A stretch of 64,000 nt of DNA from an uncultured Cryomorphaceae bacterium. GTDB taxonomy: Bacteria; Bacteroidota; Bacteroidia; Flavobacteriales; Schleiferiaceae. The position numbers and the translations under genes were made by a program. Below, piece after piece: positions 31,370 through 33,486 of the stretch. Positions within the stretch are counted from its first letter, which is position 1, and each line of letters starts with the position of its first letter. The notes under the pieces were generated by a model. The model searched no databases. It worked only from the letters and a program-made list of their open reading frames with translations, and had not been told where the DNA came from. The stretch covers positions 2,558,068-2,622,067 of the forward strand of contig CAKZJV010000007.1 in the NCBI GenBank assembly GCA_937120475.1, read 5' to 3'.

Positions 31370-32119
31370 ATGGATTTAACATTAAAAGTTTGGCGCCAGC
31401 CCAACGGCAGTACCAAGGGAAAAATGGAAGATTACCAGGTTTCCGGCATTGACGGAGATATGTCATTCCTGGAAATGATGGATATCCTGAATGAGCAACT
31501 GATTGAAAAGGGTGAAGACCCGGTAGCTTTTGACCATGACTGCCGTGAAGGTATTTGTGGTATGTGTTCCATGCAAATAAACGGAGAACCACATGGCCCT
31601 GAAAAGGCTACCACCACCTGCCAGTTGCACATGCGTAAATTCAAGAACGGGGATACCATTTATATAGAACCGTTCCGGGCCAACGGCTTCCCGGTGGTTA
31701 AGGATTTGGCGGTGGATCGTTCTTCATTTGACCGCATCATTCAGGCCGGTGGATATATTTCCGTAAACACCTCCGGAAATACCCTGGATGGTAATGCTAT
31801 ACCGGTAGAAAAGAAAAACGCGGATATGGCCTTTAATGCAGCTACATGCATCGGTTGCGGAGCCTGTGTGGCCGCTTGTCCTAATGCTTCAGCTATGTTA
31901 TTTACTTCAGCCAAGGTATCGCAACTGGCATTGTTACCCCAGGGGAGGGTTGAAGCTTCCAAAAGGGTGCAGAATATGGTGCACCAAATGGATCTTGAAG
32001 GTTTTGGGAACTGCTCCAATGTGGGAGCCTGTGCCGAGGAGTGCCCGAAGGAAATATCCCTTGAGAATATCGCCAGAATGAATCGTGAGTACCTGAGTGC
32101 TTCGATCTCATCCGAATAA
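31370..32119 (+). CDS. sdhB: Succinate dehydrogenase iron-sulfur subunit
   Basis: 249 residues. N-terminal ferredoxin-type [2Fe-2S] ligands in [13 protein letters not shown]-terminal part with [13 protein letters not shown] and [15 protein letters not shown] for the [4Fe-4S] and [3Fe-4S] clusters. Carries electrons from the flavin to the membrane subunit. Ends the operon, followed by a GC-rich terminator. Confidence 0.97.
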
Positions 32120-32142
32120 CTAAAGGCTTTCCCAATTTACCA

Positions 32143-32166
32143 CCCCACCATCCGGTGGGGTTTTTT
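32143..32166 (+). terminator. Terminator of sdhCAB
   Basis: CCCCACC-ATCC-GGTGGGG followed by six T. Strong intrinsic terminator directly after sdhB. Confidence 0.92.
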
Positions 32167-32186
32167 ATTGGCGGGAGAATCTGAAA

Positions 32187-32328
32187 CAAAAAAGCGGAGA
32201 GCCAACGGCTCTCCGCTATATCTTAACAAGGTAAACTTGGAATTTGTAGATTACTAACCCTATTTCCCTAAAAATGAAGAACCCTCGTTAAGAGAAATTA
32301 AAGGTAGTCAAAAAATCCATATACGCAA
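32187..32328 (-). ncRNA. Candidate minus-strand small RNA 1
   Basis: A near-consensus promoter is present on the minus strand: TTG (32328-32326), 19 nt, TACCTTTA (32306-32299, one mismatch from TAnnTTTG). About 105 nt downstream, on the same strand, is a perfect 11-bp hairpin (32193-32217) with a T-run formed by the six A of 32188-32193. The span thus has promoter and terminator but no ORF of gene size. The transcript would start near 32294. Expression is not shown, and the unit is unlike any RNA family I can recognise with certainty. Confidence 0.45.
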
Positions 32329-32349
32329 GTTTTTGAATCGCTTTCTCAA

Positions 32350-32435
32350 TAAAAAAGGCCGCCTAAGAAAGGCGGCCCAACGAAAACTAAAACATAAAAA
32401 TGAAAAAACTTTACAAGCTCTTCACTTCAAATATA
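32350..32435 (-). ncRNA. Candidate minus-strand small RNA 2
   Basis: Minus-strand TATATTTG (32435-32428, perfect -7 box) is followed by about 75 nt and then a 7-bp GC hairpin GGCCGCC/GGCGGCC (32357-32377) with six A on the plus strand (32351-32356), a T-run on the minus strand. The -33 TTG is missing. Part of the body resembles candidate RNA 1: both contain TTCATTTTTA before the hairpin. A tandem pair of related RNAs is inferred. Alternatively the hairpins belong to plus-strand leaders. Confidence 0.4.
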
Positions 32436-32547
32436 TAATAAATTTAGTGTAATTGGTAAAATTCGGGATACAAAAACTGGATGGGCAACGTGCACTTGTG
32501 CCAAAGAAGGTCGAGAAATATCAACTTTTACACAAAGAATTGTGAAT

Positions 32548-32697
32548 TAGGTTTGTAATTTTAAAAATGAAGCGTTAAATTTGTTATATATTTAGGTGTT
32601 AGCGACAATTTACCTAAAACTCCGAAGTTTCTATTAGGTGTTATTTGGTTAGTAATCTTGAAAGGGTCTTACTGTGTAAGGCCCTTTCTTTTTGCCT
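32548..32697 (+). ncRNA. Candidate plus-strand structured RNA or terminated leader
   Basis: TAGGTTTG at 32548-32555 is a perfect -7 box. Downstream come three successive hairpins: TTTAGGT/ACCTAAA (32591-32618), AAACT-CCGA-AGTTT (32617-32630, sharing two bases with the first stem, so the two may be alternatives) and a terminator stem AAAGGGTCTTAC/GTAAGGCCCTTT (32661-32687) followed by CTTTTTG. The next gene starts at 32710. It could be a free RNA of about 130 nt or an attenuated leader of the amidase gene. Confidence 0.4.
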
Positions 32698-32709
32698 TAG
32701 TTTAAGCGT

Positions 32710-33486
32710 ATGGATCAGTTACAAATAAGCCTCGTTCAACCCTATTTACATTGGGAAGAACCGGACTCAAACCGGCAGCACCTCTACCATCTCATTCAAA
32801 ATATAGCGGATACCGACCTCATTATTCTCCCGGAAATGTTTGCCACTGGGTTTACCATGCAACCGTTAGCTTTGGCTGAACCTGAGTCAGGGGCTTCCGT
32901 CAGGTGGATGAAAAAGCTGGCCCGGGAAAAGGAGGCGGCCGTTTGCGGAAGCCTGGTAATTAGTGAAAATAATAAGTTTTACAACCGCTTGTTTTTTGTA
33001 AAGCCTGACGGCAGCTATCATACCTATAATAAAAGGCACCTCTTCACCCTGGCTGGTGAAGAAAAGGTTTACACGGCCGGTAAAGAGCAATTAGTGGTGG
33101 AATATGCCGGGTGGAAAATTATGCCCTTGGTTTGTTACGACCTGCGTTTCCCGGTGTGGTGCCGCAATACCGCAGAGGCAGAGCTAATGATATTTGTCGC
33201 CAACTGGCCTGAAAGAAGGTCGGAGGCCTGGAAGAGTTTACTGAAGGCACGGGCCATTGAAAATATGTGTTATGTTACCGGTGTAAACCGGGTAGGTAAT
33301 GATGGCAATGAGGTTTTCCATTCCGGTGATTCCGGTGTTTATGACGAATTGGGCCAGCTACTTTCTGATTTTGCCCCGGGGCAGGAGCAGGTAAAGACCT
33401 TTACTCTTCAGAAGGAGCAGGTGCATCGCTCGCGGGAGCGGTTTTCTTTTTTGAAGGATCGCGACCTTTTCCGGATTGAGGTTTGA
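32710..33486 (+). CDS. Omega-amidase / nitrilase-family hydrolase (YafV-like)
   Basis: 258 residues. The catalytic triad is E42 (LPEMFATGF), K108 (YNKRHLF) and C142 (LVCYDLRFPVW). This arrangement and the length fit omega-amidases of the carbon-nitrogen hydrolase superfamily, which deamidate 2-oxoglutaramate or 2-oxosuccinamate. Substrate preference is inferred. Preceded by hairpin-rich DNA with a terminator 22 bp upstream. The last 86 bp overlap the convergent Ig-like lipoprotein gene. Confidence 0.9.
   Translation: MDQLQISLVQPYLHWEEPDSNRQHLYHLIQNIADTDLIILPEMFATGFTMQPLALAEPESGASVRWMKKLAREKEAAVCGSLVISENNKFYNRLFFVKPDGSYHTYNKRHLFTLAGEEKVYTAGKEQLVVEYAGWKIMPLVCYDLRFPVWCRNTAEAELMIFVANWPERRSEAWKSLLKARAIENMCYVTGVNRVGNDGNEVFHSGDSGVYDELGQLLSDFAPGQEQVKTFTLQKEQVHRSRERFSFLKDRDLFRIEV

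Follow-up and report, generated by a model that had tools for sequence, protein, structure and literature searches.

Candidate small-RNA genes beside sdhB in Owenweeksia-type bacteria, one with a predicted antisense partner among sigma54-type transcripts

The gap between sdhB and an amidase gene in an uncultured Cryomorphaceae bacterium appears to hold a cluster of three small-RNA (sRNA) genes, of which one, unit 2, would act in trans by antisense pairing with an unlinked sigma54-type transcript, in the manner of GibS and without Hfq. We assign this reading a probability of about 0.75. In the proposed mechanism, unit 2 would be transcribed from a housekeeping (TAnnTTTG) promoter, and a 21-27 nt stretch of its core would pair with the very 5' end of the sigma54-type transcript. 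This would block translation of a 118-120 amino acid signal-peptide protein and lower the amount of the transcript. The transcript in turn may take up unit 2 and so relieve other targets, chiefly mRNAs starting ATGAAAAAACTT. The RNAs, their start sites, the sigma54 promoter and the pairing are predictions from comparative sequence analysis.

RNA genes between sdhB and the amidase gene

The window (the whole stretch of DNA that was analysed, 64,000 nucleotides) comes from a genome of 3.65 Mb, G000, which has Owenweeksia and other Cryomorphaceae assemblies among its near relatives. sdhB ends at 32119, and the gap then runs to the start of a plus-strand nitrilase-superfamily amidase gene (PF00795) at 32710. 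The earlier note had seen no useful coding sequence here, and indeed the approximately 540 bases between the sdh terminator and the amidase gene contain no useful ORF. The gap holds four terminator-like sites, as compared to 0.9 expected from shuffled sequences. A DNA search of the genus found the gap at 85% identity in G001 and as blocks of 79-83% identity in G002. The start sites of units 1 and 2 were set 5 nt past the -7 box, following the position of TAnnTTTG in Flavobacterium psychrophilum, where this flavobacterial -7 consensus sits at -12 to -5 (PMC9723704). The features are as follows:

32142-32166, plus strand: intrinsic terminator of the sdh operon (8-bp stem, then TTTTTT), upstream limit of the cluster
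32188-32217, minus strand: unit 1 terminator hairpin and T-run (11-bp stem 32217-32193, TTTTTT 32193-32188)
32188-32294, minus strand: unit 1 putative sRNA, about 107 nt, start predicted from the -7 box
32222-32231, minus strand: unit 1 closing stem, 3' strand CCTTGTTAAG, pairs with 32283-32292
32246-32269, minus strand: unit 1 conserved core AGGGAAATAGGGTTAGTAATCTAC, invariant columns in 16 genomes
32283-32292, minus strand: unit 1 closing stem, 5' strand CTTAACGAGG, pairs with 32231-32222
32299-32328, minus strand: unit 1 predicted promoter (TTG 32328-32326, 19-nt spacer, -7 box TACCTTTA 32306-32299)
32351-32378, minus strand: unit 2 terminator hairpin and T-run (9-bp stem 32378-32357, TTTTTT 32356-32351)
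32351-32423, minus strand: unit 2 putative sRNA, about 73 nt, predicted start G32423 (GAAGAGC...), from the alignment
32380-32411, minus strand: unit 2 core and predicted pairing region AAGTTTTTTCATTTTTATGTTTTAGTTTTCGT, 32 nt, 100% identical in 15 genomes
32428-32435, minus strand: unit 2 predicted promoter, -7 box TATATTTG, TAnnTTTG in 15/15 genomes with nn varying
32576-32583, plus strand: unit 3 predicted promoter, -7 box TAAATTTG, with TATATTTG or TAAATTTG in most relatives
32588-32693, plus strand: unit 3 putative sRNA, about 106 nt, eight aligned copies from seven genomes
32626-32657, plus strand: unit 3 conserved core AGTTTCTATTAGGTGTTATTTGGTTAGTAATC, from the alignment
32660-32693, plus strand: unit 3 terminator hairpin and T-run (13-bp stem, then TTTTT)

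Units 1 and 2 are very likely sRNA genes on the minus strand, as the earlier note had proposed. Both hairpins with minus-strand T-runs are present (32217-32193 and 32378-32357), and so are the two promoter-like regions, TTG-N19-TACCTTTA for unit 1 and TATATTTG for unit 2. These promoters go beyond chance, since the TTG of unit 1 lies exactly 19 nt from the -7 box (TTG-N19-TAnnTTnn) in 11 of 16 genomes and TAnnTTTG of unit 2 is found in all 15 genomes with its two central positions free. The conservation of hairpins and core in relatives, which had been named as support, was looked for and found. Across 15-16 genomes, promoters and bodies are conserved while the terminator stems change in sequence and keep their pairing. 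Units 1 and 2 are kept in 16-20 genomes of one marine family (Owenweeksia and relatives), and the flanking DNA and the terminator stem sequences have diverged where the two units are conserved.

The closing stem of unit 1 is paired in 96.9% of the cells of the alignment, with two-sided changes at three pairs, and its covariation score exceeded those of all shuffles; the sequence of its terminator stem varies among genomes with pairing kept. A GTDB pattern scan found the unit 1 core at 14 exact loci, all in Bacteroidota and all adjoining the amidase gene, and the core had no match in viral contigs. The covariance model of unit 1 matched 17 of 395 genomes of the order, with one copy each and within a single family.

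The identity of unit 2 differs sharply by zone. The TA and TTTG of the -7 box and the core are 100% identical. In contrast, the two free -7 positions (57%), the discriminator (60%) and the terminator region (63%, yet pairing) vary, and the 5' part of the RNA is variable too while the core is invariant. Each lineage has its own terminator stem sequence with the fold unchanged. Thus, unit 2 behaves as expected of an sRNA gene. Transcription is predicted to start on a G in 14 of 15 genomes, and the RNA contains TTTATGTTT with a central A. The core, which is predicted to be mostly unpaired, occurs as a 28-nt sequence (one Y position) with zero mismatches in 20 genomes of the family; three g5 genomes carry a diverged version. 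A conserved promoter of its own and an intrinsic terminator, both expected of trans-acting antisense sRNAs, were thus found for units 1 and 2, and for unit 2 alone there was also a conserved seed, mostly unpaired, that is complementary to an unlinked transcript and co-varies with it.

Two points of the earlier description held in part. The number of units had been given as two; both are present, but a third, on the plus strand at 32588-32693, had been overlooked. The sequence TTCATTTTTA, which had been taken to suggest duplication of one unit into the other, is indeed shared within the window. In most other genomes, however, unit 1 has TTCATTTATA or TTCATTTTAT instead, and otherwise the two bodies are unrelated, so this sequence is no evidence of duplication. 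We rejected the duplication, as the units have just a 10-mer in common within the window.

No Rfam family reached its gathering threshold within 32120-32709 (best score 27.6 bits against a threshold of 80), and E-value thresholds gave only sub-threshold chance matches in the same gap. The scores for MicA, rseX and SorY were weak and far below gathering thresholds.

The sigma54 leader and the expected effects of pairing

A search that allowed up to two mismatches located CGAAAACTAAAACATAAAAA, the complement of the unit 2 core, in 23 of 88 genomes of the family. Apart from unit 2 itself, an exact match occurs in G000, where it forms the leader at G000:C7:1793647 and immediately precedes the start codon of an unlinked gene; within the same mismatch limit, the complement also stands directly before the start codon in G001, G020, G005, G051, G023 and G011. 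The gene downstream encodes a 118-120 amino acid protein with a signal-peptide-like start, and it is flanked by a divergent sigma54-type (NtrC-type) response regulator and a MacB/LolD-like ABC transporter ATPase. This order of regulator, leader and ABC gene is kept in all listed genomes except G011, where the site precedes a homologous protein outside the regulator-ABC locus. The ORF near the site is different and short in G002 and G016. Unit 2 is also carried by G018, G008 and the g5 genomes, and no such regulator locus was found in G008 and g5.

Upstream of the site lies a GG-N10-GC sigma54 motif. Going by the sigma54 consensus, the predicted transcript start falls at the first bases of the site, which would make the site the whole 5' UTR of a transcript beginning ACGAAAACTGAAAC. 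Between the response regulator and its divergent target (L002, about 1570-1640) we also observed two TGTTCR-N4-YGAACA palindromes, kept in most relatives, which are probably binding sites of the regulator.

The pairing run between unit 2 and the leader is 23 nt long in G000. A background of 800 kb of strand from that genome, for which 20 stretches of 20 kb and the window were sampled, contained no run longer than 19 nt. The duplex energy is -27.8 against a shuffle mean of -13.5, and no shuffle of unit 2 reached -27.8. Judged on duplex energy alone, the target comes third among 374 sampled translation-initiation regions, since a U-rich sRNA pairs with many A-rich leaders. We therefore rejected energy alone as a target predictor for being too unspecific, and the case for pairing rests on the long run together with the comparative evidence described below. 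Taken together, these make pairing of unit 2 with the sigma54 leader quite probable. Pairing among units 1, 2 and 3 and the 3' domain of the partner did not exceed shuffles.

Where the small protein is encoded, pairing would take in the entire 5' UTR and in most cases the start codon, which should block translation; repression of that protein by unit 2 has in our estimate slightly better than even odds. The ORF is gone in six genomes (G045, G046, G047, G048, G049 and G050), which keep a site of 21-23 nt, with the ABC ATPase as the next gene about 250 nt on. Thus, control of the small protein is not the only reason for keeping the site, which could plausibly act as a sponge or serve to regulate the whole RNA and the ABC operon. 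Since the site survives, the sigma54 transcript probably also takes up unit 2 through this pairing. We put forward a sponge function of this transcript tentatively; it and repression of the small protein are mutually compatible.

A stricter version, in which the sigma54 transcript only titrates unit 2 when the regulator is active, freeing mRNAs for MKK-type secreted proteins with no repression involved, is the strongest competitor of our reading, although we consider it the less probable one. It would account for the six ORF-less genomes, in which the site stands at the start of a structured RNA, and for AAGTTTTTTCAT, the 12-nt segment that opens the unit 2 core and matches the mRNA start ATGAAAAAACTT. 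As this segment is conserved and remains unpaired with the sigma54 leader in most genomes, other targets must account for its conservation. The best of the sampled G000 leaders belong to MKK signal-peptide genes, and a lipoprotein leader of G020 also fits unit 2. However, these other targets are energy-only predictions, and wherever the ORF is present the site extends across the 5' UTR and in most cases over the start codon, as repression predicts. In the G020 case (L232, G020:C71 about 123040), both the leader and the start of the lipoprotein gene MKKLSSSIALALMVILSSC closely match unit 2, making it a possible extra target. At L082 and L083 (G045 and G046), a unit 2 complement with two mismatches, CGAAAACTAAAACATGCAAA, overlaps the start codon of a gene whose long product resembles a TonB-dependent receptor or similar outer-membrane protein.

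The partner transcript runs into a conserved structured domain, which lies 3' of the ORF in genomes having one. Its closing helix, formed by AAAAACCCCGG with CCGGGGTTTTT, has five pairs with two-sided changes and encloses GTTCAAGTAGCAGAATTTAGGGTTAAATCGGTTAT. We observed the domain at L002 988-1144, minus strand (G000:C7 about 1793134-1793290), and in 15 relatives, with a terminator-like covarying closing helix and an invariant GTTCAAGTAGCAGAA...TCGGTT interior; the four partner loci searched gave no Rfam match. Since several lineages dropped the ORF and kept the RNA, an mRNA may have become a noncoding sponge or partner. On this basis we entertain, as an unlikely extension, a two-RNA switch made of unit 2 and a dual sigma54 RNA (5' site, optional ORF and 3' structured domain with its covarying helix); units 1 and 3 would be additional components of this circuit, which would work without Hfq.

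Unit 3 and readings other than RNA pairing

Unit 3, which has a hairpin close to its 5' end, is probably an sRNA gene as well. It might instead serve the amidase gene as a terminator-type leader (a riboswitch or an attenuator): the amidase ATG at 32710 follows on the same strand 17 nt past the end of the unit 3 terminator at 32693, and the unit is structured and conserved. We consider this doubtful, because several genomes retain units 1 and 2 but have no unit 3 before the amidase gene. Moreover, the two tandem copies in G002 (L043, minus strand, about 1635-1932) have separate promoters and terminators, and unit 3 has GGTTAGTAATCT in common with unit 1, which is encoded on the opposite strand. 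Units 1 and 3 are best treated as separate conserved RNAs to which no target is assigned: a search for targets through 22-nt complements gave nothing above control or consistent, and their shared 11-nt seed GATTACTAACC was not enriched over control. GGTTA-type motifs occur in units 1 and 3 and in the RNA domain at L002 (AGGGTTAGTAATC, TGGTTAGTAATC, AGGGTTAATCGGTTAT) and are possibly a common protein-binding element.

The sequence shared by unit 2 and the leader could also be a DNA or protein-binding element, for example a sigma54 post-promoter element, with no RNA pairing at all, as the site lies directly 3' of the sigma54 promoter, where regulators bind. A DNA element would not be expected to follow pairing rules, and the site does follow them. 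Across 15 genomes, the 20-nt site has six different substitutions, and all six keep pairing via G-U; the rough chance of this is 0.006, 0.03 or 0.1 at a transition weight of 2, 4 or 8, respectively. Furthermore, in genus g9 unit 2 carries an A to G change, and the leaders of G010 and G054 carry T to C at the matching place, so that pairing is stronger with the sRNA of g9 itself than with the other type (-31.1 versus -25.5 and -25.3 versus -20.3, respectively). Site and sRNA are also lost together in G052, where unit 1 and the target gene are kept, unit 2 is gone and leader pairing is lost (-7.8); this genome is 92% complete, so that unit 2 could lie in the missing part, but its usual locus is intact and empty. 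These observations leave the DNA-element explanation very improbable and argue for pairing between unit 2 and the leader. G017 showed neither unit 2 nor a site at the regulator, and the sites are weak in G018 (-20.8, unit 2 present) and in G053 of g9 (-19.4). The leaders at L136 and L137 (G010 and G054, g9) have a hairpin inserted between two unit 2 half-sites, so pairing there would have to bridge a stem.

The alternative offered in the earlier note, two plus-strand leaders with the micro-ORFs MKNPR and MKKLYKLFTSNI, here taken as regulatory and each with a hairpin before it, can be set aside as highly improbable: each micro-ORF ATG follows an A-rich, translation-initiation-like sequence and the plus strand of unit 2 resembles a genuine gene leader, but the latter is explained by the unit 2 RNA being antisense to one, the micro-ORF lengths (5-21 amino acids in unit 1, 4-64 in unit 2) and the sequence past MKKL or MKNP are unconserved, the unit 2 ATG is ACG in G006 with the minus-strand promoter, core and terminator still recognisable, and the hairpin T-runs are on the minus strand only, with TAnnTTTG promoters conserved on that strand. 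The combination of a conserved plus-strand micro-ORF and a terminator, as in leader-peptide attenuators, was not found.

Known systems and the meaning of the cluster

MicA and RybB, proteobacterial envelope sRNAs, are antisense to the translation-initiation regions of exported-protein mRNAs, and they depend on Hfq and have short seeds. Unit 2 would resemble them in being antisense to an initiation region, unlike them in Hfq dependence and seed length. A search for Hfq (PF17209) found none in 13 genomes including G000, with matches in 5 of 14 named genomes used as controls; accordingly, unit 2 pairing would be unaided or helped by another protein.

GibS of Bacteroides thetaiotaomicron provides the experimental precedent for pairing with start-codon regions in Bacteroidetes (PMC7366714). 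Like unit 2, it is intergenic and trans-encoded, with a long single-stranded conserved seed, an intrinsic terminator and no Hfq, and its seed pairs across the start codons of its targets in a phylum without Shine-Dalgarno sequences, as is predicted for unit 2 (PMC7366714). The likeness drawn here is one of mode: GibS is about 145 nt long, has its seed within the 5' part and acts on metabolic targets (PMC7366714), whereas unit 2 is about 73 nt long with a central core of 21-27 nt and a predicted sigma54-transcript target. Rfp18 of F. psychrophilum, compared by description, is likewise a conserved trans-acting Flavobacteriales sRNA with secreted-protein targets, and its deletion lowered two metalloprotease mRNAs; it differs in being strongly structured and pairing through its third stem-loop (PMC9723704). 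In Campylobacter, a trans-acting sRNA is reported to be similarly countered by a complementary RNA, but that antagonist is cis-encoded (PMC8687705), whereas unit 2 is predicted to pair with an unlinked sigma54 transcript, which is protein-coding in some genomes. Thus, the kind of sRNA is already known from GibS and Rfp18, and the families described here are absent from Rfam. Our literature search found no paper on sRNAs of the Owenweeksia-type family or of this locus.

Little is known of trans-acting sRNAs in Bacteroidota, and the 13 genomes examined for Hfq yielded none. The cluster offers an sRNA with a long invariant core and a predicted partner that obeys RNA-pairing rules across several genera, together with a natural joint loss of unit 2 and site and intermediates in which the ORF is lost and the pairing site kept. 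All three units and the target are present in Owenweeksia hongkongensis (G005), a cultured type strain (PMC3570807), and thus the predicted RNA switch is directly testable. If the two-RNA switch is true, this family would provide a case of an mRNA turned noncoding sponge or partner of an sRNA.
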